Assembly (NCBI RefSeq): GCF_947501785.1
Contig: NZ_CANMXB010000001.1
Span: forward strand, 2,608,501 to 2,672,500
Reading direction: 5' to 3'
DNA from: an uncultured Litoreibacter sp.
GTDB lineage: Bacteria; Pseudomonadota; Alphaproteobacteria; Rhodobacterales; Rhodobacteraceae
Length of the DNA: 64,000 nt
Shown here: positions 27,697-44,299 of the stretch, in pieces
Numbering within the stretch: the first letter of the stretch is position 1
How the letters are laid out: the number at the start of each line of letters is the position of its first letter
Translations under genes and position numbers: made by a program
Notes under the pieces: generated by a model
Databases searched by the model: none
Seen by the model: only the letters and a program-made list of their open reading frames with translations
Told to the model about the DNA's origin: nothing

Positions 27697-28491
27697 ATGA
27701 ACGTATTGATCCTTGGCAGCGGGGGACGGCTTGGCACCCTTTTGCAGGCCGCTTGGCCACAAGACGGTCAGACCAATCCAACCTGGTACAATCGCACAGC
27801 ACTTGATGTTTTGCGAGACCGCCAAGGGTTGGAGGACGCCTGCGCGGGCACTGACAGAATCATACTTCTGGCGGGGGTAACCGCCAATGCCCGTGGAAAA
27901 TCCTTTGATGACAACATTAAGTTGGCCGAGGCGACACTGGATGCCGCGTTGGGCAAACCGGTCTTCCTGTCATCGACCGCGGCCGTCTATGGGGCCCTGC
28001 CCAGTCCTCTTCATGAAAGTCACGCGGGGGCGCCTGTCTCGGACTACGGCCGTTCAAAGCAGCTGATGGAAGAAGTCGCCTCAAAACACCCCAACGCCAC
28101 CTGCCTGCGCATTGGCAATGTCGTGGGGGGGGACGCCTTGCTGGGCGTCAACCGACCCCACTACACCGTGCACCAGTTTCCGAGCGGCGAATATGTGAGC
28201 CGAAGCTACATCGGGCCTTCGATGCTGGCACATGTCCTTGCAGCCCTCTGCATTGAACGAAATGCCCTTCCGCCCATACTGAACGTGGCGACATCAAAGG
28301 CCGTTGCAATGAATGAGCTGTTGGATGCGGCTGGCAAGAGTTGGTCCGCGGAACCCGCCCCAGCCTCGGCAATGGAACGGGTTGAACTGGATACCACGTT
28401 GTTGCGCTCCATCGTCCCAATTGGCGCGGGGCAATCCACCGCGGAAGCGTTGGTCAACGACTGGCAATCGGTGATCGGACATCAAGGATGA
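27697..28491 (+). CDS. NAD-dependent epimerase/dehydratase-family sugar reductase
   Basis: The ATG at 27697 (2 nt after the rlmH stop) gives 264 residues; the longer frame lies inside rlmH. An extended SDR fold is seen: GSGGRLG at 7-13, SSTAAVYG with the catalytic Ser and DYGRSK with Tyr and Lys. The next two genes encode a small sugar-phosphate transferase and a 4,6-dehydratase. The set resembles wreQ-wreU-wreV of Rhizobium etli, where the reductase makes QuiNAc from the 4-keto sugar. That substrate is inferred from context only. The stop overlaps the next gene (ATGA). Confidence 0.75.
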   Translation: MNVLILGSGGRLGTLLQAAWPQDGQTNPTWYNRTALDVLRDRQGLEDACAGTDRIILLAGVTANARGKSFDDNIKLAEATLDAALGKPVFLSSTAAVYGALPSPLHESHAGAPVSDYGRSKQLMEEVASKHPNATCLRIGNVVGGDALLGVNRPHYTVHQFPSGEYVSRSYIGPSMLAHVLAALCIERNALPPILNVATSKAVAMNELLDAAGKSWSAEPAPASAMERVELDTTLLRSIVPIGAGQSTAEALVNDWQSVIGHQG

Positions 28492-29111
28492 CCTGGGGAA
28501 AACGTATATTCGACCTGGCCTGCGCGTTTACGTTGACGCTGCTGATTTTCCCCTTTTTCGGATGGATCTGCCTACGCATCTGGTGGGAGGGCGACGGCCC
28601 CATATTCTATGTCTCAGAGCGGATGCACGCGCCGAACAAGCCCTTTGGCCTCATCAAATTCCGCACCATGTCGGTGGCGCACGACGGGGACCAAGGCGTC
28701 ACAGGTGGCAGCAAAATGCAGCGTATCACCCCGTTGGGGGCCGCGCTGCGCAAACGGCGGTTCGACGAGTTGCCGCAGCTTTGGAACATATTCAAGGGTG
28801 ACATCACGGTGGTCGGCCCGCGCCCACCGCTACGGGAATATGTGGAACGGTATCCGGACGTCTACGATCAGGTCCTCAAAAGCCGCCCCGGCGTCACCGG
28901 TTTGGCGTCCCTAATTTTCCATCGGCGTGAAGCGGAGCTGCTGGAAAACTGCGTCGATCCGCAAGAGACGGACGATGTCTACTGTCGCATCTGTATCCCC
29001 GCCAAGGCCAAGCTCGACCTGATGTATCAGCGCAATGCCAATCTCTGCCTCGACACCTGGATTTTGTACCGCACGCTGCGTCAAATGCTGGCGCGCAAAG
29101 GGCCGCGCTAA
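28488..29111 (+). CDS. Polyprenyl-phosphate sugar-1-phosphate transferase (initiating, small PglC-like type)
   Basis: This family puts the first sugar phosphate on undecaprenyl phosphate at the inner membrane. The 207-residue protein has one N-terminal membrane segment (residues 7-32) with no extra transmembrane domain, as in PglC and ExoY cores. Motifs are KFRTM, LRKRRFDELPQLWNIFKGDITVVGPRP and RPGVTGLASL. An unusual cysteine-containing insert (NCVDPQETDDVYCRICIP) follows RRE in place of the standard ending. It is coupled to the upstream reductase and probably starts a glycan with the sugar made by the neighbouring enzymes. Confidence 0.88.
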   Translation: MTWGKRIFDLACAFTLTLLIFPFFGWICLRIWWEGDGPIFYVSERMHAPNKPFGLIKFRTMSVAHDGDQGVTGGSKMQRITPLGAALRKRRFDELPQLWNIFKGDITVVGPRPPLREYVERYPDVYDQVLKSRPGVTGLASLIFHRREAELLENCVDPQETDDVYCRICIPAKAKLDLMYQRNANLCLDTWILYRTLRQMLARKGPR

Positions 29112-29333: not shown

Positions 29334-31199
29334 ATGATGACGAGGCTGCTGAACCTGACGCGGACGCAAAAGCGCGCGATGCTTTTCGCAATCGACATCT
29401 GCCTTGTCCCGGTCGCGCTTCTCACCGCCATTTTTCTGCAATTCGGCCAGGTGCAGGTGCTGGAATGGTTCGTCAACGAATGGGCGTTTTGCATAACGTT
29501 GATGATGATTGCAGCAGGGGCATCAACCGCCTTGGGCATATTCCGCATTCGGTTGAAGTCCTTTGATCGCAGCGCTGTTGGCAAGATCATGGTGTTTTCG
29601 GCGCTGATGGGGCTCGCCTCGCTGACATTGGCTAGCCTTGCAGGCATTTGGATGCCAATGCGGTTCCATCTGACATTTGCCATGGCGTTCTTCATGCTCT
29701 GCGCGGGCAGCCGGTTTGTGATGCTGGAAATTTTGCTGGCCGCCTACCGCAAGAACGGACACGTGTCGTCAGTCCTGATTTACGGGGCCGGGAAGACGGG
29801 AATGCAGTTGGCCAGCGCTCTGAAGTCGCACCCGGACATCATTCCAATCGGATTTGTCGATGACAACGCGGCCCTCAAGGACCAGATCATCGCGGGGCTA
29901 CCGGTCTATCACGGCGGACAATTAGACGAGGCAATCGCGGAAACGCGACCTGACCGGGTGGTTATTGCCATGCCGTCAGCGCCGCGCCAGTCGGTCGCCA
30001 AAATCGAACGCCGGTTGGAACAAACCAATACCAATGTCCATGTGCTGCCCTCTTTCGCGCAATTGGTTGGCCAGGAGCAAATCAAGGATCCGCTGGACGT
30101 CGCGCATGGCGTCTTCCTGGGGCGGGAAGATTTGCGCAGCAACATCGATATTGGGTGTGACGAATACGCCAATCGGGTTGTCATGGTGTCCGGCGCGGGT
30201 GGCTCAATCGGGTCCGAGCTTAGCCGCCAGATCATTCGCTGCGCGCCGTCAAAGATCGTTCTGTTCGAACAAAGCGAACTTGCGCTTTACGACATTGAAC
30301 TTGAGCTCGCCGAAAGTGCCGCTCGCAATGGCATTACGCTTGTGCCGGTGCTCGGCTCTGTTGTCGAACCCGAACTGGTGCGGGGCGTGCTGACCGAACA
30401 TAAGGTCGACGTCATCCTACATGCCGCCGCCTACAAACATGTCCCGTTGGTCGAGAAGAACCCCATCGCGGGTCTGTCCAATAACGTACTGGGGACGCAA
30501 AATCTTGCGGTGCAGGCACGCGAAGCAGGTGTCGGTCGGTTCGTGCTCGTCTCAACCGACAAGGCGGTTCGCCCGGCGAACATCATGGGCGCATCCAAAC
30601 GGTTTGCCGAGATGCTTATTCAGGATCAGGCAAGCCGAGCCACCCAAACGGTGTTCTCCATCGTGCGGTTCGGCAATGTGCTGGGCTCGTCGGGTTCGGT
30701 TGTTCCACTTTTCCAGGATCAGGTTGCGCGCGGCGGACCGGTTACACTGACCCATGACAGCGTTACGCGCTATTTCATGACAGTCCAGGAGGCCGCGCAG
30801 CTGGTGTTGACCGCCGGCAGCTTGGCGGAAGGCGGAGAGGTTTTTGTGCTCGACATGGGCAAACCGGTGCCTGTGCGCAAATTGGCCGAGCAGGTGATTG
30901 AGGCGTCAGGCTACACCGTCCGCAACCACCAAAACCCGGAAGGCGATATCGAGATTGTCATCACCGGGTTGCGGGCTGGCGAAAAAATGCACGAAGAGCT
31001 GACGATCAGCGCGGGCCGCACCACAACGAAACACGAAAAGATTTTCAGCGCGCGCGAAGACTGCTTGTCCGAGATAGAACTGGCCAGCGCGCTAAGAGCA
31101 ATGCGCGACGCCATTGCTGCCAATGACGTGGAAGCCGCCGAAGAAACCGTGCACCGTTGGATCGATGGCTACAAACCTCGCATCAAGAACGTGCAGTAA
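29334..31199 (+). CDS. Membrane-bound UDP-sugar 4,6-dehydratase (FlaA1/CapD/WbpM family)
   Basis: A 621-residue protein with four N-terminal membrane segments (residues ~15-125), a first nucleotide-binding domain (YGAGKTGMQLASAL near 146), and a catalytic SDR domain (SGAGGSIGSELSRQI near 285). The family version of the active site, VSTDKAVRPANIMGASKR, has Met where ordinary SDRs have Tyr. Such enzymes convert UDP-GlcNAc to the 4-keto-6-deoxy sugar. It is in the same direction as the reductase and transferase upstream, with 222 bp between, and probably supplies them. Two consecutive ATGs occur at the start. Confidence 0.9.
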   Translation: MMTRLLNLTRTQKRAMLFAIDICLVPVALLTAIFLQFGQVQVLEWFVNEWAFCITLMMIAAGASTALGIFRIRLKSFDRSAVGKIMVFSALMGLASLTLASLAGIWMPMRFHLTFAMAFFMLCAGSRFVMLEILLAAYRKNGHVSSVLIYGAGKTGMQLASALKSHPDIIPIGFVDDNAALKDQIIAGLPVYHGGQLDEAIAETRPDRVVIAMPSAPRQSVAKIERRLEQTNTNVHVLPSFAQLVGQEQIKDPLDVAHGVFLGREDLRSNIDIGCDEYANRVVMVSGAGGSIGSELSRQIIRCAPSKIVLFEQSELALYDIELELAESAARNGITLVPVLGSVVEPELVRGVLTEHKVDVILHAAAYKHVPLVEKNPIAGLSNNVLGTQNLAVQAREAGVGRFVLVSTDKAVRPANIMGASKRFAEMLIQDQASRATQTVFSIVRFGNVLGSSGSVVPLFQDQVARGGPVTLTHDSVTRYFMTVQEAAQLVLTAGSLAEGGEVFVLDMGKPVPVRKLAEQVIEASGYTVRNHQNPEGDIEIVITGLRAGEKMHEELTISAGRTTTKHEKIFSAREDCLSEIELASALRAMRDAIAANDVEAAEETVHRWIDGYKPRIKNVQ

Positions 31200-31334
31200 C
31201 GGACCAAGCTGCGAACGCACCGGTTCGAGTTTCTTAACATTTGCCTGACAAAACCTGCCCGCGTGGTGAGACCCGCCACGACGACGTTTCGCGCCCATGA
31301 CCCGGCGCATCACTCAAGATATGGCAGGATTTCA

Positions 31335-31595
31335 ATGGATAAGTTTGCAAATTTCCCAACAACGCCGATTTCTCCGGCGCGAGGCGGCGCACAGGTGACA
31401 CCTGATGACGCAACGCCGCTCACTCAGGTCAGCCGCGCACTGTATGTGGGCCAGGGTGGCGACATCGCCGCAACTCTTGCGGATGGAGACACGGTCACAT
31501 TCGAAGCGGTTCCCTCAGGCGCCATTCTCCCCATCCGCGCGGCATCGGTTTCAGCGACAGGCACTACAGCAGAGGCCATTGTCGCCCTGTGGTAG
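31335..31595 (+). CDS. Gene transfer agent head spike base protein (Rcc01079/GhsA family)
   Basis: An 86-residue protein with the pattern I know for the spike base family: N-terminal FPTTPISPARGGAQVTPDDATPL, then TQVSRALYVGQGGDIAATLADGDTVTFEAVPSGAILPI and the ending ATGTTAEAIVALW. In R. capsulatus this protein (Rcc01079) forms the base of the GTA head spikes, which bind the capsule of recipient cells. The ATG at 31335 is chosen because similarity begins there; the frame extends upstream to 31263. No other GTA capsid or tail genes are visible. A terminator follows. The match is from memory of the family, not a search. Confidence 0.78.
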   Translation: MDKFANFPTTPISPARGGAQVTPDDATPLTQVSRALYVGQGGDIAATLADGDTVTFEAVPSGAILPIRAASVSATGTTAEAIVALW

Positions 31596-31604
31596 TCGCT
31601 TGAA

Positions 31605-32816
31605 CTAAGCGCTCTTCATCAAGCCCGCCGCGCTTCGCGTGGCGGGTTTTTTCTGGCGCATCGCAAGCCTTGCTATGATGTCCGACAGGGCAAGATCGTA
31701 TGTCTCCAACCGTTGGCGGCCAAGAGCAGTTGCCGCCGCCGCTTCCGCCGCAAGCATGTCTCGGTTTTCAAATCCGTTTAACACCTTCCGCAGCAGCGCC
31801 TCGTGAAGATGCGTTCGCGCGTCAGCGACGTGCCGGTACCCCAGGGCATCAAACAGTCCCGCGAATTTTCTGCTATAGGCAAACGGCACAACCGCCACGC
31901 CGCTGGACAGTGCTGCGATGCAGCTGTGCATTCGGGCGCCGGTGAAGAATGACAAATCGGCAATGTAGCCTTTGGCCTGTGACGGCGTTTGAAAGGCCGG
32001 AGCCACAACTGTCCCGGGGAATTCCATTTGCAACGCCGCGCAGGCGGCCATGTCGTCTTCGACAGGTGCATCGGGGCTTATGACATGCGGGACGAGGTGC
32101 ACCTCCGGCCGGTCCGGATGTGACAAAAACATCCTGATCAGCGCGCGAATAAATGCGGGGTAGTCGACGCTCAATCCGAACTGGTTTGATTTTGCATAAC
32201 CACCGGCCATCAGCAATCCAGAGACATTTATCCCAACGGTTGGGCGCGCGCTTTGGTGACCTGAAGGCGCGCCCTCAAGTCGCAAGGCAACGTCTGAGGC
32301 AACCGTCACATCCTTGGCCAGCCCGATGTCCCGCAGATGCGCCACTGACGCCTCGTCCCGAGAACAAATCAAGGCAGAACGCCCAATCGTCGCGCGGGCC
32401 AGAATCTTCGACACAGGGTGACGGAATGGCCCAATCGTCTGCGGTGCCAGCACCAATGGTCGGCGTGCCAAATGGGTCAGGAACTTCAACCAAAAGATGC
32501 GGCGCAGACGCTTGCCGCCATAGGTGTCTGCAAAGCTGTCACCAGCGCCGATATCCACCACCAAATCCGCCTTGCGCAAATGCCGCCAAACCCCCGTCGG
32601 AGACAGGAAGTCGCGCCCGGCAATTGGCACGATGGAGATGTCATCACCGGACACGCAGGCTGGGCCGCTGTCGCGCCAATCAAGCAAAGTCATATGGATC
32701 GGAATTCGCAGCTTACGGGACAGGTCTCGAAGCAAAGCGACCTGTGCCACAGTCAACGCGCCAACTCCAAGGTTGGGCGATCGCGACGCGTGCAGGATAA
32801 GGCAGACATGCAACAT
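31605..32816 (-). CDS. Polysaccharide pyruvyl transferase family protein
   Basis: Members transfer pyruvate from phosphoenolpyruvate to sugars of exopolysaccharides (CsaB/WcaK type). The ATG at 32816 is chosen because the family N-terminus (LHVCLILHASRSPNLGVGALTVAQV) starts there, giving 403 residues. Landmarks are VVDIGAGDSFADTYG near 88-102, PLVLAPQTIGPF, ARATIGRSALICSRDEASVAHL, VGINVSGLL and the C-terminal TGARMHSCIAALSSGVAVVPFAYSRKFAGL. It lies 34 bp downstream of the FrhB-like gene, a common pairing in surface polysaccharide loci. Confidence 0.88.
   Translation of the reverse strand: MLHVCLILHASRSPNLGVGALTVAQVALLRDLSRKLRIPIHMTLLDWRDSGPACVSGDDISIVPIAGRDFLSPTGVWRHLRKADLVVDIGAGDSFADTYGGKRLRRIFWLKFLTHLARRPLVLAPQTIGPFRHPVSKILARATIGRSALICSRDEASVAHLRDIGLAKDVTVASDVALRLEGAPSGHQSARPTVGINVSGLLMAGGYAKSNQFGLSVDYPAFIRALIRMFLSHPDRPEVHLVPHVISPDAPVEDDMAACAALQMEFPGTVVAPAFQTPSQAKGYIADLSFFTGARMHSCIAALSSGVAVVPFAYSRKFAGLFDALGYRHVADARTHLHEALLRKVLNGFENRDMLAAEAAAATALGRQRLETYDLALSDIIARLAMRQKKPATRSAAGLMKSA
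31624..31652 (+). terminator. Rho-independent terminator of the spike base gene
   Basis: CCCGCCGCG and GCGTGGCGGG form a GC-rich stem around a CTTC loop, directly followed by six T residues. It sits 29 bp after the spike-gene stop and inside the 3' coding end of the convergent pyruvyl transferase gene. Confidence 0.8.
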
Positions 32817-32850: not shown

Positions 32851-34074
32851 TTACGATTGCTGACGTCGACGCAGAAAGCACCGTCGCGCCATGCCCAACG
32901 CGGCTCTAACGCTTTGCCACAGGCCCGCGCGTCGCGCACAATTCCAAATGCCCATGGCGCGATAAGCGGGGATCGGCGTCCCGCTGATGACGCGACCAGC
33001 GAGCCTGCCGAGCAGCTCCCTGCGCCTGCGCACTTGCCCGGGTTGCATCGCCTCCAGCACGGCGATCGGGACAGGTTGTGTTTGCAACATCCCGTGTTCA
33101 ACGGCCTCTTTAACCAGCCCTGCCCCCCGCGCAGTCCGCGCAAGAATGAGGCTGACCCCGTCGCCTTCCTCGAACAATGGATACCCGCTCTCGTCAGTTT
33201 GCCATGCGTCGCCAAATGCGATGTCGGCGGCAATGCCGGTCCCATCTGCACAAACCCGGCAACGTGGCTGTACATGGCTCGACAAAACGTCGCCCCAACT
33301 CTCCTGATAGCTCATGGAACGCTCCGCGCCGTTTTGTTCAACGACGGTGGCACGCCCGGGCCAGCCCTGCCCGCGGTAGCGGAACTGCGCCACGTTGGCG
33401 GCCGCAACGCTCAGTTTGTTGATGATCACGTTGGCCCCGTTTTCAGACGGCACCCCCGCACAGAAGAACGAAAGCATCACCGGAAATACTTGATCCACCC
33501 GCGCGTCTAATCGCGCGAGGTTGCGCAACGCCGCAACGTCGCATGGCTTGCCGACAAAGGCATAGCGCCTACCGGTTGCCAACAGCTCCGGCACCGCTGT
33601 TATGGGGGCGGACGGGGCATATCTTGATGCGCTTGCCGCCAGAATGTCGGCTTTCGAGGTGCTGATGGTGTTCCTGTTTCCGGTGGGGTTTCCGGGGTCC
33701 GCCGCAATGTGCAACGCCCCGTCCACTTGCCCGCTTTCGATTAACCAAAGCAAAACGCCCGACAACGCGCCGCCGGAAGCCGCGGCATGGCGCAGCGCAA
33801 TGTCGGTGGCCCAGCCTTTGGTCACATCATGATAACCGCCCCAAAGCGGGTGGGTATTCACGCCGCCAATGGTGCCGCGCTGCCGACCTCCGGGGCACAC
33901 AGCATAGATGTCATGTGCTTGTTTGCGGGGCAACTTGGTCGCTGAGGGTCGTAAAAAGCCGTCATCCGTTTTGGTCATCGTGACATGGTCCGGGGCGACA
34001 ACGGCGCAGGCGCCGCAGCCGGCGCATAAATCAGCCGCAACAATGCGGTCAGTCACGTCCAATCTTCTGGCCAC
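32851..34074 (-). CDS. F420 hydrogenase/dehydrogenase beta-subunit (FrhB)-like iron-sulfur protein
   Basis: The 407-residue protein starts, by my choice, at GTG 34074 after GGAAG; the open frame runs on to 34245, but that would overlap the divergent flippase. An N-terminal ferredoxin motif CAGCGACAVV with CPGG further on is present. It is followed by FrhB-type regions HAAASGGALSGVLLWLIESG, GKPCDVAALRNL, FFCAGVPS, and a cysteine pair in RCRVCADGTGIAADIAFGDAW. FrhB-like proteins in polysaccharide loci have no known cofactor or reaction; F420 use is not implied. The neighbour downstream is a pyruvyl transferase, suggesting a joint sugar modification. Confidence 0.82.
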   Translation of the reverse strand: MARRLDVTDRIVAADLCAGCGACAVVAPDHVTMTKTDDGFLRPSATKLPRKQAHDIYAVCPGGRQRGTIGGVNTHPLWGGYHDVTKGWATDIALRHAAASGGALSGVLLWLIESGQVDGALHIAADPGNPTGNRNTISTSKADILAASASRYAPSAPITAVPELLATGRRYAFVGKPCDVAALRNLARLDARVDQVFPVMLSFFCAGVPSENGANVIINKLSVAAANVAQFRYRGQGWPGRATVVEQNGAERSMSYQESWGDVLSSHVQPRCRVCADGTGIAADIAFGDAWQTDESGYPLFEEGDGVSLILARTARGAGLVKEAVEHGMLQTQPVPIAVLEAMQPGQVRRRRELLGRLAGRVISGTPIPAYRAMGIWNCARRAGLWQSVRAALGMARRCFLRRRQQS

Positions 34075-34135
34075 AATGGTCTTCCGTTTCGCCTCTTTAC
34101 GCGATGTTAAGGTCAGATTGGTTAAGTCCGTGTAA

Positions 34136-35377
34136 ATGATTGCGAACTTGACCCTTTCTGCGCCCCGCCGATCGGCACATCCGTTTCTGGTGTTGCTGTC
34201 GGGGCATGGCGGCGTGGCGGCGTTGACCCTGCTGCGCAACATCATTGTTGCGCGCCTTATTGGTGTTGAAAACTTTGGGATCGCCGCAACTTTCGCAATT
34301 CTGGTGTCAGCCGTCGAAATGGTGACAACACTCGGCGCGCAGCAAATGATCGTGCAGGACGCGGATGGCGAAGATGTCGACTTCCAATCCTCGCTTCACT
34401 GCGTGCAGCTGGGGCGTGGCATCGTGGGGGCGGCGGTAATCTATGCAATCGCAAACCCCGTCGCCGCCTTCTTTGGGACGCCTGACCTGGCATGGGCGTA
34501 CCGGACCCTCGCGTTGGTGCCGCTGCTCACCGGCCTGTCACATCTTGATGCCTGGCGCTACCACCGCAACAAGCGGTTTGGCCCGTCAATTTGGGTGCAG
34601 CTTGGCCCGGCATTTCTGTCGTTGATGTTGGTCTGGCCGCTGATGACCAAGTTTGGGGATTTCCGCGTTCTTCTGGTCGCCATCATCACGCAATACACAG
34701 GCATGGCAATGATGTCCCATCTGGTTGCGGAGCGGAGGTATCTTGCCGGTTTCTGCGCAGACCACCTGCGGCGCGCATTTCGCTTTGGCTGGCCAATTGC
34801 CCTGAACGGCTTGTTGCTATTGGCGGTGTTCCATGGAGAGAAGCTAATCGTCGGCCATCTGCGTGGCTCGGAATCGCTCGCTCTGCTGGCGATGGGGTTT
34901 TCGCTGACGTTGACACCGGCGCTCATTGTTGGGCGCAGCCTTCAAAGCTACCTCCTTCCGCAGCTGACCAGTGTCCGCAATAACCCCGGAAGGTTTCATG
35001 ATCTGGCCGCGTCCGTGCTGCGTTTTTGCCTGTTGGCGGGCTGCACGCTTGGTATCGTTCTGGCCATTGCCTCCCCAACTGTGCCGTGGATTTTGGGGCG
35101 CGACTTTGTGCCACTTATGACGCTGTTTCCGATCCTGGCGGCGCTGCACGGAATCCGCGTTGTAAAGAGCGGCGTCACGGTAATAGCCCTTGCGCAAGGC
35201 GCCACCACGAACGCGACCCTGGGAAATTTGCCCCGCGTCGCTGCGCTGCCCGTGATTTACGCCAGTTTGAACTCTGGCGGGTCATTGGAAACCGCCCTTT
35301 GGATTGCAACCGCGGCGGAGGGTGTGGGGCTGGTCATAGCCTACGCACTTCTCCGCCACGTGTTACCCGCCCGCTAG
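34136..35377 (+). CDS. Polysaccharide flippase (Wzx-like, PST/MOP family)
   Basis: A 413-residue integral membrane protein with about 12 predicted helices. It has the MOP-family N-terminus GGVAALTLLRNIIVARLIGVENFGIAATFAILVSAVEMV and a conserved Pro/Gly pattern. It should flip undecaprenyl-linked repeat units to the periplasmic face. It is divergent from the FrhB-like gene (61 bp between the starts) and convergent with the fibre-like gene, with a 4-bp stop overlap. No neighbour-specific substrate can be deduced. Confidence 0.85.
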   Translation: MIANLTLSAPRRSAHPFLVLLSGHGGVAALTLLRNIIVARLIGVENFGIAATFAILVSAVEMVTTLGAQQMIVQDADGEDVDFQSSLHCVQLGRGIVGAAVIYAIANPVAAFFGTPDLAWAYRTLALVPLLTGLSHLDAWRYHRNKRFGPSIWVQLGPAFLSLMLVWPLMTKFGDFRVLLVAIITQYTGMAMMSHLVAERRYLAGFCADHLRRAFRFGWPIALNGLLLLAVFHGEKLIVGHLRGSESLALLAMGFSLTLTPALIVGRSLQSYLLPQLTSVRNNPGRFHDLAASVLRFCLLAGCTLGIVLAIASPTVPWILGRDFVPLMTLFPILAALHGIRVVKSGVTVIALAQGATTNATLGNLPRVAALPVIYASLNSGGSLETALWIATAAEGVGLVIAYALLRHVLPAR

Positions 35378-37602
35378 GTTGCGGCGGTACCGTTCCTCCA
35401 AGGATCCGCGTTGACCACGGCCGCCGGACCGATGAAGTCCTTGTACGGCGTGGCGGCAGGCAAGCTTCCGTCCGATGTCGCCGTTTTCCAGATTGCCAGC
35501 CTCGATACGGCACCTTCGACCTGATATGCACCGGTATTGCTCGCCAGGAGCAGCAACGCGCGGTTCGACGGCAAAGTTGGCGTGGCAGACGAAAAACTTT
35601 CGTCAATCACCAACGCGTCATTGACCCAAACCCGGGCAAATCCGGCTGGCAGGTCAACGCCAAATCTAATGTCGGCCTGGACGTTGTCGGCCAAAACGGC
35701 GCCACTTTGCACGTTATCCACATGAACCACACCGCCGCTATCCCGCACGCGCAGGCGCACTTTGCCGTTGGGCAGGATCTCCAACCGCAAATAGTTGCCG
35801 GTTGTTGTCAGCAGGTTTTTGGATCCGGAACTGGACACAACAGGCGCCAGGTCCATCTGCGCAAAGAGCTCAGAGACTCCAGCGCCCAGGGTGGCAGGAT
35901 CATAGAAGAACGGCCCGGTCGGCCCGGTGCTGAAACCGCCGGCTGGTGGTGTTAAGGTGTTGGCCAGCATGCTTGCATCTGGCAACGGCCGCACTGGGAT
36001 GCCGTCCACGCCGGCGAGGCCAAGATCGACAACCGGCAGGTTCTTATAGGTCCCGGCGATGTGGTCTTCGGGGAACTTCGCCATACCGGTGGCCCCGCCC
36101 TCGCCAAAACGGATCACGTCAGTAGAGACGAAGTTTCCGACGTTCGGATAAATCCGCACGCGGCCATTTTCAAGCTCGGCCCGATGCGCGGGCAATCCGT
36201 TGATCTGCCAACCAAACACGTCGGTCCAATGCGGCTGACTGTTGTCCAGTTCAGGCTCGCCGCGCAGGGCTCTCGTCGTGGTGACTGGCCCGGCGCTGGA
36301 CCACACATCAACATAAGCGCCTGAAGGCTCCCATTCCGCCATGTCGAATACGGGCACTGACCAGTTGGTCAGCCCGCTCGATTGCAAAATTGCATGCGCC
36401 ACAAGTCGGGCGAACATCGGGGCGCCATCGTCGGTGTCGGATGACGGGTGGCTTTGGTCGGTCCAGCCACCCGACCCATCGCTGACACCGTTTTGGTAGG
36501 TCGTCGGCTCCAATCCAAGAGGCAGGAAAATGCCATCAGCATGGGGGTTGTCCATCAGTGCTCGCCAGCTGACGCGGGCCTGCTCTTTGTTCTGCAGGTT
36601 GTTCTGTATGGCCCCGCCTGCAAGCACCGTGGCGCTTTGCATGTCCGCATCAATGTCAAACCGGTGCGGGCCGAAAGCGACCCATTTGGTTTGGGCCGGG
36701 TCATAAAGCTCGCCAAACCAGTGGTCAGCCTGATAGCTGCCCCCGCTCCCAAACGAGATTTGCGCAGGGAAGGTCACGTCTGCGCCGCTGGTGGTCTTAC
36801 CCGCAAACAGCGGCAGCAGCGCCTCCTCGTAATGTTCCGCCAGCGAACCCGGCGAAGCGAACCAGGACACGGACGGCAACCCGACATGCTGGCCATCCGC
36901 CGTGGCGAACGCATGCACCGCCGCGTCTTCTGACCAGTTGCGGCTGGTGTCGCTGTCATCAACTAGCGCCCGGAACCCGGTGCCGGACACAGCCTGAAAC
37001 ACCAGTGCGACCTTGTCATCAGGTCGCTCAGCCAGAAAAACATTGGCCATCGCGGCAAGTGCCGCGGTATGCGGGTCGGCGTCGGTCAGATGTTTCACCA
37101 CCGGCGCGCCATCAAACCAGATCGCTTGCACAGCGTCATCGGCCAGCAGCGGCTCTGGGGTCAGGTTGTTATATGCCGTGGACCTTATCCTTACGATTTC
37201 GGATTGCCCCCATAGCGCCACCACGTGGCCAACTCCAAACCGGTTTGCTGTCGTTGCCCGGGTCACCGGTTCGGACTTGTTGCGCACCTCGATCCGGCTC
37301 CAACCTGCGCCACGAGCGGCAGAGACTGAACCCGTCCAATCGCCGTTCCCGTCCGCCATGGTGAGGTCGCTCCACGCCGTGGCGGGGCCGCCCTCCGTCA
37401 ACACCCGCACCTGAACCGTTTCGCCGGCGGTCGCAGTGCCGCCAATCGGTACGGTCGCTTCATTTCGGCCAAACGCGGCGCCGCTGTCGAACAACGTTTT
37501 GTCACGCGAGAAGTCCGCAATGGAAATGGAGGTAACCGGCTCCGGCGTTTCGGTTGTGTTAGACGTCGGGGCGGCCAATCCAAGGCCAAGCAAAGTGATC
37601 AT
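35374..37602 (-). CDS. Large GQSE/LamG-like protein, candidate GTA head-spike fibre (Rcc01080/GhsB-like)
   Basis: A 742-residue protein beginning MITLLGLGLAAP, not a convincing signal peptide. Residues ~48-118 look like an Ig-type domain (GGTATAGETVQVRVLTEGG). A sialate O-acetylesterase/SGNH-like block GQSE is at 132-135, with VALVFQAVSGTGF further on. The C-terminus (~564-742) looks like a LamG/concanavalin-type carbohydrate-binding fold ending YKDFIGPAAVVNADPW. Such C-termini occur, as I recall, in Rhodobacterales proteins paired with the spike base protein. AAGG precedes the ATG at 37602. It could instead be a secreted polysaccharide esterase; the link to GTA rests on the spike base gene 4 kb away. 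Confidence 0.55.
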   Translation of the reverse strand: MITLLGLGLAAPTSNTTETPEPVTSISIADFSRDKTLFDSGAAFGRNEATVPIGGTATAGETVQVRVLTEGGPATAWSDLTMADGNGDWTGSVSAARGAGWSRIEVRNKSEPVTRATTANRFGVGHVVALWGQSEIVRIRSTAYNNLTPEPLLADDAVQAIWFDGAPVVKHLTDADPHTAALAAMANVFLAERPDDKVALVFQAVSGTGFRALVDDSDTSRNWSEDAAVHAFATADGQHVGLPSVSWFASPGSLAEHYEEALLPLFAGKTTSGADVTFPAQISFGSGGSYQADHWFGELYDPAQTKWVAFGPHRFDIDADMQSATVLAGGAIQNNLQNKEQARVSWRALMDNPHADGIFLPLGLEPTTYQNGVSDGSGGWTDQSHPSSDTDDGAPMFARLVAHAILQSSGLTNWSVPVFDMAEWEPSGAYVDVWSSAGPVTTTRALRGEPELDNSQPHWTDVFGWQINGLPAHRAELENGRVRIYPNVGNFVSTDVIRFGEGGATGMAKFPEDHIAGTYKNLPVVDLGLAGVDGIPVRPLPDASMLANTLTPPAGGFSTGPTGPFFYDPATLGAGVSELFAQMDLAPVVSSSGSKNLLTTTGNYLRLEILPNGKVRLRVRDSGGVVHVDNVQSGAVLADNVQADIRFGVDLPAGFARVWVNDALVIDESFSSATPTLPSNRALLLLASNTGAYQVEGAVSRLAIWKTATSDGSLPAATPYKDFIGPAAVVNADPWRNGTAAT

Positions 37603-37786
37603 AGAACGTACCTTTGATTTGGGGCAGCCGAAGAGGACGCTCTGATGGCGTGGCCAACTCGATCTTCGGGCGCAGCATGTCTCTGGATGGGAATGGCAGG
37701 CGAACGGGCCGCTTGACGGACGGGGCGTATCACGGCCCGGAATGCCGTTGCCGCAAACTCTGGTCAGGCGGACGGATGGTTAAGGA

Positions 37787-38305
37787 TTAGGTCAGACCTG
37801 TGACGGCGAGACAATGCTCCTGCCGGTCAGCCGTCGGCAAACGGCCATAGGGACCGGCGTCAATACCCTGCCGAATGACCCGCGCCGGGTTGCCAGCAAC
37901 AATGCAGTCGTCGGGAACATCGCGGGTAACGACCGCCCCCGCTGCGACAATGCTGCCATCGCCCACCTTTACTCCGGGCAGAATAATGCTGCGCGCGCCA
38001 ATGAAACAGTTTTCGCCAATGCGTGTGTGCAAATACAGACCGCGCGTCCGGTCGTGGGTCAACACCACCGCCCCGAACGCGATGTAGCTGTTCGCCCCCA
38101 CATGCACTCCAATTGGAAAGGTTCGATCCAGATTTGCCGACAGCGATAGCTCGGCACTGGGCGCGAGATCCATACCCAACAACTGCACCAAATATGCGCG
38201 ACGCATATTTACCAACCCGCGCCGCAGCCATTTCAGCCGGTTCAATCCACGGCGGCGCGCTTTGGCCGGCGGCTCAGCAAAATTCGGCAATGCAGTCACG
38301 GTCAT
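37787..38305 (-). CDS. Hexapeptide-repeat (left-handed beta-helix) acyltransferase
   Basis: A protein of 172 residues from the ATG at 38305; a TTG at 38350 would add 15. The left-handed beta-helix hexads run from about residue 60 to 140 (IGVHVGANSYIAFGAVVLTHD, IGENCFIGARSIILPGVKVGDGSIVAAGAVVTRDVPD), ending with the classic GNPARVIR. Such enzymes O- or N-acetylate sugars of surface polysaccharides; acetyl-CoA is the likely donor. It is divergent from the polymerase gene. Confidence 0.85.
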   Translation of the reverse strand: MTVTALPNFAEPPAKARRRGLNRLKWLRRGLVNMRRAYLVQLLGMDLAPSAELSLSANLDRTFPIGVHVGANSYIAFGAVVLTHDRTRGLYLHTRIGENCFIGARSIILPGVKVGDGSIVAAGAVVTRDVPDDCIVAGNPARVIRQGIDAGPYGRLPTADRQEHCLAVTGLT

Positions 38306-38361
38306 CCGTTCAGGTAATGAAATGGTATCAACGGAACCGTAGCTGCTCAAATCTTTACAGA

Positions 38362-39675
38362 ATGATAACGGTTAACAGTCAGTTTACCGAAATGATCCGC
38401 AACCCCGCCCGCAAGAAACCGACGCTCCCCTGGCCCGTCATTCTTTATCTGGCCTGCGTCGTCACCCCCGTAAGGTTCATGGCCGGACCGCTGCAGATGA
38501 CGGGTTTGCGGGTATTTCTGCTGGCCATGCTGCCGTTCGTTCTGATCCGCATGTTCAGGGTCAAATGGATTGCGCCAGACATCTTGCTGCTGCTTTTCGT
38601 CGCTTGGGTCTTTGTCGCGATGCAGGTCAACACGCCAGGTCAAGCACTGGAACACGCGGGCATCACCCTGTTGGAAATGTTCGGCGGCTATGCGCTCGCG
38701 CGCGTCTACGTGCAGACCCACGACCAGTTCAAATCTCTGATCAAGGCGGTGCTGTTGTTGGTGCTGCTCTGCATGCCATTGGCAATTTCCGAAACAGTAA
38801 CCGGCGATCCGCTGGTCGTCCAGTTGATCCGGGCAATCCCCGGCATAACCAGCGTTGACGTCGTCACCATCGCCCCGCGCCTCGGGCTGGAAAGGGTGCA
38901 GGCCATCTTTGCCCATCCCATCCATTTTGGGTTGTTTTGTTCGTCCGCAATATCGCTGGTCTATATCGGTTTGTCGCAAAACATGCCGCACCCGACCCGA
39001 ATGGTTGCAAGCGTGCTGATCGTCGGGACGACTTTCCTCGCCCTGTCCAGCGGCGCATTCATTTCCGTTCTCATCCAGCTGTTCCTGATTGGTTGGGCCC
39101 TGGTGTTCGCGCAGGTGCGGCACAAATGGGTATGGCTCCTCGTCGCCTGCGTGGTTAGCTACATCTTCGTCGACCTCGTCTCCAACCGGACGCCGCTTCG
39201 GGTGTTCTTCAGCTACGCTACATTTTCGCCTCACAACGCGTATTGGCGCGGGCTTATCTTCGAATGGGGGATGCATAACGTCTGGGCAAACCCCGTGTTC
39301 GGCCTGGGCTTCAACGATTGGGTGCGCCCTCATTTCATGAACTCCGGCAGCATGGATAACTTCTGGCTTGTGGCCGCTGTCAGGTACGGGTTGCCCGGTT
39401 TTGTCCTGCTGACTTGTGCCTGGGTCACGGGCTTGATCAGGGTAGCGAAGGCACCTCAATCTTCGCTCAAGACGGCCTGGATGTTTTGCATGGTCGGACT
39501 GACCTTCACGCTGTGCACAGTCCATGTCTGGACGGCGGTCTACTCCTACGTGTTCTTCCTGTTCGGAGCCGGGCAGTCTCTGGCCGTCGCTGCACCTGCC
39601 GCGGCCAAGTCCGTTCCACAGAAACCCGCGTTTCGTCGCCCGTTCCAACCAGAATTTACACGAGCCGCATCATGA
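38362..39675 (+). CDS. O-antigen/exopolysaccharide polymerase (Wzy/O-antigen ligase-like membrane protein)
   Basis: From the ATG at 38362 it is 437 residues; ATG 38392 is an alternative. About ten membrane helices are visible, with a large periplasmic loop containing ATFSPHNAYWRGLIFEWGMHNVWANPVFGLGFNDWVRP, as in the Wzy_C/O-antigen ligase family (His and Asn of the HNxYW-like motif). It should polymerise or ligate undecaprenyl-linked units in the periplasm. The stop overlaps the glycosyltransferase start (ATGA). Confidence 0.82.
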   Translation: MITVNSQFTEMIRNPARKKPTLPWPVILYLACVVTPVRFMAGPLQMTGLRVFLLAMLPFVLIRMFRVKWIAPDILLLLFVAWVFVAMQVNTPGQALEHAGITLLEMFGGYALARVYVQTHDQFKSLIKAVLLLVLLCMPLAISETVTGDPLVVQLIRAIPGITSVDVVTIAPRLGLERVQAIFAHPIHFGLFCSSAISLVYIGLSQNMPHPTRMVASVLIVGTTFLALSSGAFISVLIQLFLIGWALVFAQVRHKWVWLLVACVVSYIFVDLVSNRTPLRVFFSYATFSPHNAYWRGLIFEWGMHNVWANPVFGLGFNDWVRPHFMNSGSMDNFWLVAAVRYGLPGFVLLTCAWVTGLIRVAKAPQSSLKTAWMFCMVGLTFTLCTVHVWTAVYSYVFFLFGAGQSLAVAAPAAAKSVPQKPAFRRPFQPEFTRAAS

Positions 39676-40652
39676 GCCGCCTTGGCGTCATCATCGTCAC
39701 CTACAACTCCGCAGATGTGATCAGGGATTGCCTTGAGACGCTGCTGTCGTCGGCCGCAAAGATGGCGGTCGTCGTGGTCGACAACGCGTCTACCGACAGC
39801 ACGGTGAGCACAATAACCGATTGGGCCAGCGGCAAGGACGGCTATACCCCGCCTCGTGATGCGCCATTTCCGGTATGGCCAGTCACAAAGCCCGTCACCC
39901 GCATATCTCTGCTTCAGTCGCCATCAAACGGAGGGTTCGCGGCGGGGGTCAATATCGGCCTCAAACACCTGCTGAAGAAACCGGATATCGACCGGTTTTG
40001 GGTACTAAACCCAGACACGTTGGTTCCTCCCGAAACGCCCGAAAAGCTGGCGGACGCTCCGGACGGGTTTGCGCTGATGGGCAACCGGCTGCTTTATGCA
40101 GACCCTCCGCATCACGTCCAGTTGGATGCCGGCACGATCAATTGGACCACCGGAGTGACCGGCAACCTGAACCTTGGGCAGGCGCGCAATACCGCTATTG
40201 CCGACGCCGGTCAGGCCGCGTTCATATCCGGCGCCAGCATGGTCGCATCCCGCGCCTTTGTGGAAGCTGCGGGCCTGATGTCGGAGGATTACTTTCTCTA
40301 CTATGAAGAGGTGGATTGGGCACTCCGCCGCGGCGGGCTGCCACTCGCGATCTGTCCAGATGCGACCGTGTACCATCGCGCCGGAACGGCCATTGGGTCA
40401 CCGACACTCACGACCGCCGCATCACCGTTTTCTACCTATTACAAACACCGCGCGCGCATGAAGTTTCTTCGCAGGCACAAGCCGCTCAGTTTGCTGGGCG
40501 GGTATGTGTACGGCCTCGCAAAGGCCGGGCAAATGGTACGTCTCGGCCAGACACCCCAGGCAGTTGCAGTGTTGCGGGCGTTACACGGGTTGCCTATTTC
40601 ATCCAATAAAGCTGCGCAGCCGAGAAACGAGATCGTCCAGCGTCGGATTTGA
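39672..40652 (+). CDS. Family 2 glycosyltransferase (rhamnosyltransferase-like)
   Basis: A 326-residue GT-A enzyme from the ATG at 39672; the longer frame is inside the polymerase gene. It has VIIVTYNSADVIRDCLETLL, VVVDNASTDSTVS, SNGGFAAGVNIGLKH, VLNPDTLVPPE (DxD-like metal site) and GLMSEDYFLYYEEVDWALRRGG, the pattern of WbbL/rhamnosyltransferase-like GT2 proteins. The sugar transferred cannot be read from sequence. The last 54 bp overlap the 3' end of the convergent PssE-like gene. Confidence 0.88.
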   Translation: MSRLGVIIVTYNSADVIRDCLETLLSSAAKMAVVVVDNASTDSTVSTITDWASGKDGYTPPRDAPFPVWPVTKPVTRISLLQSPSNGGFAAGVNIGLKHLLKKPDIDRFWVLNPDTLVPPETPEKLADAPDGFALMGNRLLYADPPHHVQLDAGTINWTTGVTGNLNLGQARNTAIADAGQAAFISGASMVASRAFVEAAGLMSEDYFLYYEEVDWALRRGGLPLAICPDATVYHRAGTAIGSPTLTTAASPFSTYYKHRARMKFLRRHKPLSLLGGYVYGLAKAGQMVRLGQTPQAVAVLRALHGLPISSNKAAQPRNEIVQRRI

Positions 40653-41060
40653 CGGCTGATCCAGCAGGTCAACTGGTTGGGCAATTGCCTCGCCCAGCCG
40701 ATCTGTATTCCAAATTGGCGTAATCCCACTTCTCCCCACCAGCTCCCTCACGGTACTCATCTGGTGGTCGTTCCGGTGCTCGCCCAGCTCCGCGCGACGC
40801 GGCACCAATACAACTGGCGTTCCGACGTCGCGGGCAGCCAGCACTGTACCAATCCCGGCATGCGAAACCACCAAACGCGCCCGCGAAACAACGCGGCCGT
40901 ACCGCTCTGCGGGGATCATTGGCTCGACAATTAGGTTTCGGCATTTATGCGCATCAAAGGTTTGCGCCACGACCGGTTCCAGCAATTGCCCGGCAATCTT
41001 GTCCATCGCGTCCACAAGTCTCGGAAACGGCAGCTGGGTTCCGACGGTAACAAAAATCAT
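40599..41060 (-). CDS. PssE/Alg13-like glycosyltransferase subunit (UDP-sugar-binding half)
   Basis: A 153-residue protein equal to the C-terminal half of GT28-type transferases: MIFVTVGTQLPFPRLVDAMD at the start, VVSRARLVVSHAGIGTVLAARDVGTPVVLVPRRAELGEHRNDHQ in the middle. This His/Gly-rich motif binds the nucleotide sugar. Together with the Alg14-like partner encoded directly upstream (ATGA overlap) it forms a two-part enzyme, as PssD/PssE in Rhizobium or EpsE/F-type pairs. The partner anchors it to the membrane. Confidence 0.88.
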   Translation of the reverse strand: MIFVTVGTQLPFPRLVDAMDKIAGQLLEPVVAQTFDAHKCRNLIVEPMIPAERYGRVVSRARLVVSHAGIGTVLAARDVGTPVVLVPRRAELGEHRNDHQMSTVRELVGRSGITPIWNTDRLGEAIAQPVDLLDQPSNPTLDDLVSRLRSFIG

Positions 41061-41494
41061 AGCACCGAACCTGCATATTCTGCTCCAGTTTCAGCAGACA
41101 CTTTCGGCCACTGGGTCAACCACAGCCCCGCGAACGGCCGGCACAGCCGTCCCGATAATGACATCCGCTCCGTGTTTGCCACCGAATCGATCCAAATTGT
41201 GCGGGCCCCGAAAGCGCGCGCCACGATCAGTGACAACAGTCCCGGCAGTGCGCCGGTCGAGACAACCACGTCGGGCCGATACCGCCCAATAATCCATGCC
41301 AGCTGGACAGCTGTTATGAAACCCAACCACCATTTCGATCGGCTGCAGTCGCGCACGCAGTAATCGCCCAGCTCAGGCGAGGTCGAAACAAAGCGGCAGA
41401 TATGCCCCTCAAATGCCCCGGCTAATGCCGATAACTGCCGCCAGTGCCCGCCCTGCGAAGCCACGGCCAAAACGCGTTTTACCCCGCCGCTCAA
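41057..41494 (-). CDS. PssD/Alg14-like glycosyltransferase subunit (membrane-anchoring, acceptor half)
   Basis: A 145-residue protein with VLAVASQGGHWRQLSAL at the N-terminus, PDVVVSTGALPGLLSLIVARAFGARTIWIDSVANTERMSLSGRL and a hydrophobic helix around FITAVQLAWIIG. This is the Alg14 half, which recruits the catalytic subunit to the lipid-linked acceptor. Its start overlaps the barrel-protein stop and its end overlaps the PssE-like start, so four genes from Wza onward are translationally chained. Confidence 0.88.
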   Translation of the reverse strand: MSGGVKRVLAVASQGGHWRQLSALAGAFEGHICRFVSTSPELGDYCVRDCSRSKWWLGFITAVQLAWIIGRYRPDVVVSTGALPGLLSLIVARAFGARTIWIDSVANTERMSLSGRLCRPFAGLWLTQWPKVSAETGAEYAGSVL

Positions 41495-42819
41495 TGCAGG
41501 GCCTCAAATTGGGTCTCAAGGGTCAAAAACATGGATCGCGACGATACTTTCGGCCCGGCGCCGTCTTGCCGCACCCGGTATCGCAGCGCGACCTGAACGC
41601 CCCAATCCGACCTCAATGCATGACGATACACCGCCTTCGCACCTGCACCCTGTCGGGCAGGGCCAGCCGCTGTCGCTCCAACCCTCACATAATCTGCACG
41701 CAGATTAAGCGAACCGTTGGCGCTCAGTTGCGACTGCCAGTTCAGCCCAAGGCGATCCGTAATACGCGAATCTTCGCTGCTTGCGTCAATGCCGACAGTT
41801 CGGTCCATCACAATTTCAACTTTCCCGGTGTCGTTCTGCTGCACGTAGGACAAGCCGCCGATCAAATCAGATTGGCCACCGGAAAAATGGGTCGCACCGA
41901 TCCACGCAGACAGTTTCGCCGCCTTGCCGGCGCGTTCGTACCCTATGCGGGCAGTTGCGCGTTTGCCGATAACCTGTTGCCGGACGCTGACATCTGCGTA
42001 AAGCCGCCGGTCGCGCATTTCCCGCTGCAACCCGAAGGTCAACTCCGCGCCGGATCGCGCTAGCTGCCGACCACTCCGGTCTCCGCGAATGCGGCGATGC
42101 CCCAATCCGAATGACAGGCTCGTTGACCGATCAATCTGATGGCGGAGGCCCACTTGCGCATATGTATTACGCAAGGACTGGGAAAACGGCGCCGCGGTCT
42201 CAGATAGCGATTGGCCTATCTCAACGCGCCCTTCTGTCAGTTGGGAAAACCGCAACACTAATGCGGCCTGCGCTTCTGACCGGTCCACATTTCCATTCTG
42301 CCCCTGGTCAGAGAACCGCCGAATGCCGTGACGCAAATCCAGTTCATATCCAACAGATCGCTGCAATCCGTCCTGAAAGGTCAGCCAAGCTGCGCCGTTG
42401 GTCATGTCGCTGCCCCGCGGGGCAATTGCGACCAGGTCAGCCGGTTGCTCATCGACGGCCGTCTCAAGGGTGCCTTCAAAACCACCGCTCGACAGCCTGT
42501 CCAGCTCCAATCCGGCAGTCAGCTTGGATTGGGAAGACGCAATGCTGTAGATCAGCGCCGCTTTACCTTTTTCAACAGTGCCTCCCCGCAGATCCAGTGC
42601 ACCGTTGGCTTCGAAACTCTGGCGGCGCGTTTCGCTGGTTAGCCCGAAGCGTAGCTCGACGAACGGATCAACGCTGCTATCCGGCACGGTTTGAAAGTCC
42701 GGATTATCGTCCATGACAAAGCCGCCACCAATGACCAGCGAGCTGCGCAGCCCGCCCGGCTCCTCTGCAAATGTCGGGCCGATAATGATTGGACAAAGTG
42801 CGAGGGCCCACCATTTCAT
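41491..42819 (-). CDS. Outer-membrane beta-barrel protein of the polysaccharide locus
   Basis: A 442-residue protein with a signal peptide (MKWWALALCPIIIGPTFA) and, after residue ~30, alternating amphipathic strands rich in Gly, Arg, Ser and aromatic residues (RSVGYELDLRHGIRRF, TSLSFGLGHRRIRG, ATARIGYERAG). About 16-18 strands are plausible. It ends MFLTLETQFEALH, near the usual terminal Phe. Barrel proteins of this kind are found beside Wza genes in Rhodobacterales EPS loci; a role in export or anchoring is inferred. It is translationally coupled on both sides. Confidence 0.78.
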   Translation of the reverse strand: MKWWALALCPIIIGPTFAEEPGGLRSSLVIGGGFVMDDNPDFQTVPDSSVDPFVELRFGLTSETRRQSFEANGALDLRGGTVEKGKAALIYSIASSQSKLTAGLELDRLSSGGFEGTLETAVDEQPADLVAIAPRGSDMTNGAAWLTFQDGLQRSVGYELDLRHGIRRFSDQGQNGNVDRSEAQAALVLRFSQLTEGRVEIGQSLSETAAPFSQSLRNTYAQVGLRHQIDRSTSLSFGLGHRRIRGDRSGRQLARSGAELTFGLQREMRDRRLYADVSVRQQVIGKRATARIGYERAGKAAKLSAWIGATHFSGGQSDLIGGLSYVQQNDTGKVEIVMDRTVGIDASSEDSRITDRLGLNWQSQLSANGSLNLRADYVRVGATAAGPARQGAGAKAVYRHALRSDWGVQVALRYRVRQDGAGPKVSSRSMFLTLETQFEALH

Positions 42820-44143: not shown

Positions 44144-44299
44144 CGCGGCCCTCTCCATCCGGGGTTTGCGGTGCGCCTGTAGACCGCAATATCTATGCCG
44201 CACGCCCCGCTGCCCTAAGGTTGGGTCTCTTCGGTTCATGCAACTCACTAAAAATGAATCGATTAGGATTAATTATGTCTTAAGTTTTCAAAGCTCTGA

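Follow-up and report, generated by a model that had tools for sequence, protein, structure and literature searches.

The window analysed here, a 64,000-nucleotide stretch of contig NZ_CANMXB010000001.1 of an uncultured Litoreibacter sp., contains a surface polysaccharide gene cluster at approximately 27.6 to 47.6 kb. Inside this cluster lie (i) a gene for the head-spike base of a gene transfer agent (GTA), and (ii) 3.8 kb further on, a candidate gene for the head-spike fibre, with a predicted product of 742 residues (Table 1). The other genes of the cluster encode two PF02397 sugar transferases, a dehydratase, a pyruvyl transferase, an FrhB-like protein, a flippase, a Wzy-like ligase, glycosyltransferases, an export protein, and epimerases. 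An earlier note on this DNA, made from the sequence alone, had described the base gene correctly and had overlooked the candidate fibre gene.

The frame of the base gene starts with ATG at 31335, ends with the TAG stop codon at 31593-31595, and encodes 86 residues, in agreement with the coordinates and strand proposed earlier. The product had been assigned to the Rcc01079 spike base family, and the profile search suggested for this assignment gave a match far above chance: residues 2-86 align with positions 1-85 of the 85-position model NF048002 ('spike base protein, RCAP_Rcc01079 family') at E 1.4e-31, with 108.6 bits against a cut-off of 28. The solved head-spike base Rcc01079 of RcGTA, the GTA of Rhodobacter capsulatus, is matched at E 1e-10 (PDB 6tb9_E3), and PHROG 12296 (tail fiber protein) at 8.8e-23. 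Of 14 control genomes, five had NF048002 matches at E up to 10 and none had a match above the cut-off. The base is a member of this known spike-base family, and it is the sole match in its genome. It is located between the dehydratase gene and the pyruvyl transferase gene on the opposite strand, and is followed by a terminator-like hairpin, in line with the description in the earlier note. The hairpin with its T run lies 3' of the base stop codon (fold z-score -3.51 for 31596-31660), and a terminator scan detects a shorter form of it (2 sites vs 0.5 in shuffles).

The separation of the base from the GTA structural genes, and the existence of a main GTA cluster elsewhere in the genome, were both borne out. 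A genome search with the main-cluster marker GTA_TIM (E up to 0.001) gave a single match, at G000:C1:479624, 2.16 Mb from the base on the same contig. A Pfam scan of eight frames there recognized large terminase, prohead protease, capsid, connector, head completion protein, hub, NlpC, and megatron. Ten structural proteins of the cluster had no match in the window at E 1e-6. With the same proteins and threshold, a match among 101 sources (the window and 100 relative loci) was obtained in L078 only (G365:C60), where the base lies about 6 kb from GTA-like tail genes matching hub, NlpC, and megatron, apparently a prophage or a second cluster.

The N-terminus of the candidate fibre reads MITLLGLGLAAP. 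Its start, MITLLGLGL, resembles in its pattern the base-binding peptide of the RcGTA head fibre, a protein attached to the base pentamer through its residues 2-10, IALGLGLGL (PMC7296036). A scan of genome contigs identified relatives of the 742-residue protein in 44 loci, assigned to Litoreibacter (13 loci), Defluviimonas, Frigidibacter, Albidovulum, Limimaricola, and others, including several metagenome-assembled genomes named to the family, class, or phylum. The nearest match (77%) is from an uncultured Litoreibacter sp. A base gene is located nearby in 37 of the 44 loci, at a distance of 3.8-4.8 kb in the 13 Litoreibacter loci and of 18-341 bp in the other 24. These 13 loci have the same gene order as the window, that is, base, pyruvyl transferase, flippase, fibre, and acetyltransferase, so that the pyruvyl transferase and flippase genes separate base from fibre. 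In Limimaricola (L113/L198), the fibre gene lies directly behind the base and its product starts with MMIGVGIGVG. For the seven loci without a detected base, the contig ends less than 80 bp from the gene in two (L169 and L172), and no base was found in the available DNA of the other five (L168, L192, L196, L197, and L199). Among six Litoreibacter genomes searched, four carry a full or near-full fibre homologue together with a base. Another, G096, has a base and, beginning about 9 kb from it, a 1476-residue open frame (L231, G096:C1:302376-306803, minus strand) whose central part partially matches the fibre family and which may start with an anchor, MEISLSTSLSG. In G059, base and fibre matches are both absent. 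A LamG domain (PF13385) was detected by Pfam in 14 of 36 fibre-family members.

Table 1. Features of the spike genes and the surrounding polysaccharide cluster (positions in the window)
Feature	Position	Strand	Evidence
GTA head-spike base gene (Rcc01079/GhsA family), 86 residues	31335..31595	+	NF048002, PDB 6tb9_E3, genome search
Candidate GTA head-spike fibre, 742 residues: N-terminal anchor, SGNH-esterase-like middle by motif, weak LamG-like C-terminus	35374..37602	-	
Anchor peptide MITLLGLGLAA, fibre residues 1-11	37570..37602	-	sequence
Terminator-like hairpin between the convergent base and pyruvyl transferase genes	31621..31652	+	fold z -3.51, terminator scan
TTAAC, candidate CtrA half-site upstream of base	31234..31238	+	sequence pattern
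GCAAC-like block upstream of fibre	37747-37751	-	alignment of upstream regions
Initiating sugar transferase	28488..29111	+	PF02397 E 7.1e-47
Nucleotide-sugar dehydratase, PF02719 kind; upstream neighbour of base	29334..31199	+	PF02719 E 1.5e-111
Polysaccharide pyruvyl transferase; downstream neighbour of base, convergent	31605..32816	-	PF04230 E 7.4e-26
FrhB/FdhB-like protein, start uncertain	32851..34245	-	PF04432 E 1.4e-32
Wzx-type flippase, between base and fibre	34136..35377	+	PF13440 E 1e-37
Hexapeptide-repeat acetyltransferase-like gene	37787..38350	-	PF14602 E 3.3e-15, PF00132 E 1.4e-13
O-antigen ligase/Wzy-like protein, start uncertain	38392..39675	+	PF04932 E 2e-08
Family 2 glycosyltransferase, start uncertain	39672..40652	+	PF00535 E 3e-13
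Alg13/Alg14-like glycosyltransferase pair, 41057-41494 and 40599-41060	40599..41494	-	PF08660 E 4.8e-07, PF04101 E 4.2e-09
Polysaccharide export protein, far side of cluster	42816..43448	-	PF02563 E 1e-19
Second PF02397 sugar transferase, far side of cluster	43466..44248	-	PF02397 E 2.1e-58

Genes located directly behind spike bases were compared in a base-centred set of 100 loci, comprising the window and 99 relatives from 58 genera. The 100 relative loci were picked by hand from the best-listed places among 168 base-bearing genomes, with places near contig starts mostly skipped, and L129 was excluded because its base was not recovered. A gene was regarded as coupled if it is on the same strand, encodes at least 150 residues, and starts between 10 bp before and 4 bp after the end of the base gene. 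A coupled gene is present in 68 of the 100 base loci, and the products form 26 families of 176 to 1224 residues. An alternating hydrophobic N-terminus characterizes 46 of the 68 base-coupled genes; among 354 similarly coupled controls taken from these loci, it occurs in 45 (Fisher P 6e-20). A stricter anchor pattern was found in 37 of 68 vs 13 of 354; genes in the relative loci are greedy open reading frame picks, and some of these control genes may be spurious. In L122, the adjacent fibre is a homologue of Rcc01080 (6tb9_F3, E 5.7e-8), and therefore the position directly behind the base is the fibre position. Three other adjacent fibres searched alike (L056, L066, and L126) had no 6tb9_F3 match. 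For the L056 fibre, a virion structural protein PHROG in the head and packaging category was matched at 4.1e-9; the fibres of L064, L113, and L114 had no PHROG match. The anchor offers a simple means to find head fibres that lack sequence similarity to Rcc01080.

The association of the base with polysaccharide genes extends across the order. NF048002 scored above its cut-off in 168 of 390 Rhodobacterales genomes. Forty genomes were searched for PF02397, the family of initiating sugar transferases; G132 and G141 were dropped, their base position being unlisted, and G177, which has two bases, is represented by the one far from PF02397. A PF02397 gene lies within 10 kb of the base in 21 of the resulting 38 genomes, representing 12 of 20 genera, vs 0.52 expected, and the count never exceeded 5 in 20000 random placements. 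The conserved linkage suggested in the earlier note is supported by this non-random placement in relatives, and none of the three outcomes that the note had listed as refuting was obtained. Models of polysaccharide genes gave at least three matches in 66 of 100 base loci vs 0 of 18 controls, and at least one match in 83 of 100 vs 3 of 18; these models were built from genes near bases and hence favour linkage, so we relied on the PF02397 test instead.

Bases are also carried by plasmids. Base genes occur in 25 plasmid records, and in eight of the ten best ones, which were opened, the base lies among annotated polysaccharide genes. The remaining two are a Thioclava plasmid with YjbF/YjbH genes and the record S. 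faviae W_1866, which lists no polysaccharide genes and in which the left side is cut at the record start. Plasmid pRLO149_63 has been described as having an rfb cluster and as being important in cell envelope biosynthesis (PMC3141670). In five of the ten opened records, all roseobacter plasmids (L216, L217, L219, L221, and L223), the base lies directly behind ParA/ParB-type partition genes.

Selection on the spike genes was estimated from 14 Litoreibacter sequences as the median dN/dS (ratio of nonsynonymous to synonymous substitution rates) over pairs with dS under 2, 91 pairs being possible. The medians are 0.17 for the base (48 of 91 pairs), 0.12 for the fibre (16 pairs), and 0.16 for the acetyltransferase (46), compared with 0.21 for the FrhB-like protein (8), 0.24 for the pyruvyl transferase (25), 0.25 for the Wzy-like protein (29), and 0.31 for the flippase (17). 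Therefore, base and fibre are under purifying selection and evolve no faster than their neighbours. Co-variation of spike and neighbouring genes, a check proposed in the earlier note, was found: between different genera, the mean Jaccard index of neighbour-family sharing is 0.077 for loci with the same fibre family vs 0.022 for other loci, a difference reached in 0 of 1000 label shuffles, with host relatedness between the genera uncontrolled. Fibre type thus co-varies with neighbouring gene families within that limit.

The middle part of the candidate fibre carries two conserved motifs. Residues G132-Q133-S134-E135, D382, and H385 are invariant in all 36 aligned fibres, taken from the window and 35 of the 44 loci. 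Nine loci stayed outside this alignment, one of them being that of Frigidibacter sp. RF13 (L073/L193), where the fibre homologue is decaying, with an in-frame stop and loss of the second (DxxH) block. A Ser block followed by an Asp-x-x-His block is the order found in SGNH esterases, and the GQS and DxxH motifs suggest that the fibre contains a domain of this type. SASA domains (PF03629) lend this circumstantial support: they are rare in the order, occurring in 13 of 149 genomes at 14 places. Three of these places are genes behind a base on the same strand, and two of the three products have an anchor-like start, the one in L072 having none; the gene behind the base of the Thioclava plasmid is annotated as a sialate O-acetylesterase. 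A further SASA-domain protein, the 934-residue open frame of L206 (G066:C7), starts with MKIGLGLGITG and is located away from the listed base of that genome.

The putative esterase is accompanied by an acetyltransferase. In the window, 184 bp separate the fibre gene from the hexapeptide acetyltransferase-like gene that lies upstream of it in the same orientation. An equally oriented gene of this kind precedes the fibre by at most 1.1 kb in 32 of the 44 loci, including four of the seven in which no base was detected. In the base-centred set, an acetyltransferase lies within 10 kb in seven of eight loci with this fibre family vs 17 of 92 others (P 0.00015; the eight represent few genera and are non-independent). 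The acetyltransferase model was built by us from neighbour genes and was confirmed by Pfam for the genes of the window and L103. In the Defluviimonas locus L049, a GDSL acylhydrolase gene is located between acetyltransferase and fibre.

As the best explanation of these observations as a whole, we consider it fairly probable that the window holds both structural genes of a GTA head spike, the base and the candidate fibre, split and interleaved with surface polysaccharide genes. According to this proposal, (i) the main cluster would supply the GTA particles, at whose capsid vertices the base would sit as pentamers, (ii) the short leucine/glycine N-terminus would pin one fibre in each base pentamer, and (iii) the rest of the fibre, with its SGNH-esterase-like domain and lectin-like C-terminus, would bind the polysaccharide made by the surrounding genes. 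The fibre would probably trim ester groups, most likely O-acetyl, on that polysaccharide, and the neighbouring hexapeptide acetyltransferase, its proposed partner, may decorate the same polymer. With receptor-making and receptor-reading genes in one locus, both would be inherited or exchanged together, and particles would thus be aimed at the producer's own coat. We infer that such linkage could keep host range and capsule type together, as the earlier note supposed, and it may decide which cells the particle can reach. GTA production is lethal to the producer; if ligand-receptor linkage does aim particles at cells with the coat of the producer, the benefit can be confined to kin, which bears on why such production persists. 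The proposal also makes head fibres candidate polysaccharide esterases.

Several observations weigh against this explanation. The candidate fibre resembles Rcc01080 in its position in relatives and in its anchor; in the search against Rcc01080 (6tb9_F3) it was unlisted at E up to 10, and the similarity is limited to the short anchor, a pattern that is itself missing from 22 of the 68 base-coupled genes. The esterase assignment is by motif: no SGNH/SASA or other esterase Pfam family was detected in any of the 36 fibre members, the best hit of a PDB profile search was an unconvincing match to outer surface protein B (E 0.79), and hhalign of the fibre family against SASA-type proteins was not significant. 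In 17 of the 38 genomes, no PF02397 gene comes as close as 10 kb to the base, and 17 of the 100 base loci have no match to the polysaccharide models. Residue 12 of the base is Ile in the window and Glu in RcGTA, where Glu12 helps to fix the base to the capsid by coordinating a cation (PMC7296036). Most relatives also lack Glu12, which was found in 20 of 100 bases; this residue is a detail of the R. capsulatus structure and no requirement of the NF048002 family model. GTA_TIM is present in 373 of the 390 genomes, and GTA presence is uninformative as a predictor of the base, which occurs in 163 of the 373 GTA_TIM-positive vs 5 of the 17 GTA_TIM-negative genomes (P 0.32, no association). These five base-bearing genomes have neither GTA_TIM nor a match to the GTA capsid of the window genome. 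Finally, a CtrA-like site before the fibre gene was rejected as not conserved, with TTAA within 150 bp in 4 of 14 cases.

Three alternative explanations were considered. The base and fibre could belong to, or be left over from, a tailed prophage, and lie in the island because islands collect foreign DNA. Base relatives do occur in 88 phage records, each at less than 60% identity, the L078 base has adjacent GTA-like tail genes, and base presence is independent of GTA presence. We nevertheless regard a prophage source as unlikely, given that GTA structural matches were confined to this one of the 101 sources (in a search with the ten GTA proteins, unrelated phage structural genes not being sought), that a search of 50,697 phage records with the 742-residue fibre gave nothing at E up to 0.1, and that purifying selection and a shared gene order characterize the Litoreibacter loci. 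Another explanation is passive linkage, by which spike and polysaccharide genes, both often exchanged, share variable islands with no functional link between fibre and polysaccharide. It agrees with the frequent presence of surface genes on roseobacter genomic islands and plasmids (PMC3141670) and with the mostly different neighbour families around bases of different genera (mean Jaccard 0.02-0.08), and is harder to reconcile with the greater sharing of neighbour families among same-fibre loci (host relatedness again uncontrolled), with retention of the acetyltransferase-fibre pair, including at loci without a detected base, and with R. capsulatus, where the neighbouring genes do make the receptor (PMC10218006); on balance it seems improbable to us.

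The 742-residue protein could also be a cellular polysaccharide-modifying or adhesive enzyme rather than a fibre, its leucine-rich start being a short membrane or sorting signal. Its gene lies beside an acetyltransferase gene and 3.8 kb from the base in the window, it follows a GDSL acylhydrolase gene in one Defluviimonas locus, and the available DNA of four loci that have the acetyltransferase pair contains no base, with two of these contigs ending less than 80 bp from the gene. The start, as judged by eye, has neither the charged part nor the long hydrophobic stretch that a signal peptide would have, and it is similar to the base-binding peptide described for RcGTA and to the N-termini of other fibres; moreover, a homologue is coupled to the base in Limimaricola, and a base accompanies the fibre in most loci of the family. 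We consider such a cellular role quite unlikely.

Beyond the GTA head-spike assignment of the two window genes, we tentatively propose a broader model, which we hold to be possible and rather less than probable, in which the GTA head spike acts throughout Rhodobacterales as an exchangeable cassette for self-recognition. Many unrelated fibres would be mounted on the same conserved base through a short anchor that they share, each fibre being encoded, on a chromosome or a plasmid, with the polysaccharide it reads. The Litoreibacter/Defluviimonas branch would pair an acetyl-adding enzyme with an acetyl-removing particle fibre, and exchange of the cassette would shift coat and particle target in one step, providing a route to aim costly particles at kin.

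Comparison with known systems revealed both common and distinct features. The statement in the earlier note that spike genes border capsule genes in R. capsulatus agrees with the literature, where head-spike and capsule genes are reported as adjacent and co-regulated (PMC10218006). Matches of rcc01079 and rcc01080 to phages RcapNL and RcapMu have also been published (PMC8601537). The RcGTA spike proteins GhsA/GhsB (Rcc01079/Rcc01080, encoded beside capsule genes rcc01081-01086) have the same base family and the same type of fibre start, and are likewise encoded outside the main GTA cluster beside polysaccharide genes (PMC7296036, PMC10218006). The RcGTA fibre has 325 residues, whereas the candidate described here has 742 and, unlike it, includes esterase-like and lectin-like parts; the two spike genes of the window, in contrast to those of RcGTA, are split by the pyruvyl transferase, FrhB-like, and flippase genes, and the bases differ in residue 12 as noted above. 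TspA (Rcc02623), a detachable RcGTA tailspike that degrades biofilm, is a GTA-borne protein reported to act on biofilm polysaccharide (PMC13420450); it is loosely held at the baseplate/tail tube and encoded in another module, whereas the candidate fibre is proposed to be anchored in the head base and is esterase-like by motif. The SASA-type (sialate O-acetylesterase) proteins behind spike bases have the GQS motif in common with the 742-residue fibre and no significant sequence or profile similarity to it. Cell-envelope plasmids such as pRLO149_63 (rfb genes) also have the base inside a polysaccharide cluster (PMC3141670); there the locus is plasmid-borne with other neighbour genes, whereas here it is on a 3.85-Mb contig. 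A partial literature survey, which is no proof of novelty, gave no mention of the linkage across the order, of plasmids carrying a spike base, or of head fibres resembling esterases. For R. capsulatus the linkage is known; what seems to be new is how widely it occurs, that base and fibre are split, and that the fibre is esterase-like.

Upstream regions of both spike genes contain conserved blocks. Putative CtrA half-sites have been described in the rcc01079/80 promoter (PMC9638019), and TTAA is located 55-104 bp before the base start in all 14 Litoreibacter upstream regions, a pattern found post hoc and with no control set. A GCAAC-like block, followed after 15-18 bp by TA, lies 137-193 bp before the fibre start in all 28 aligned upstream regions from several genera; the pattern was drawn up after viewing the alignments, and the block is perhaps part of an unrecognised promoter.

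Litoreibacter arenae DSM 19593 (G219) is among the five base-bearing genomes that lack the GTA marker and capsid match, and it has kept both base and fibre; the GTA may have been lost recently, or the spike may serve some other purpose. Its fibre (L036/L166) has an in-frame gap of about 38 residues. Within the window, the likely start of the pyruvyl transferase, from homologues, is at 32816, and the open frame extends to 33275. The product of 45701-46498, for which Pfam gave no match at 1e-5, matches phrog_19408 (unknown function) at 3e-13.
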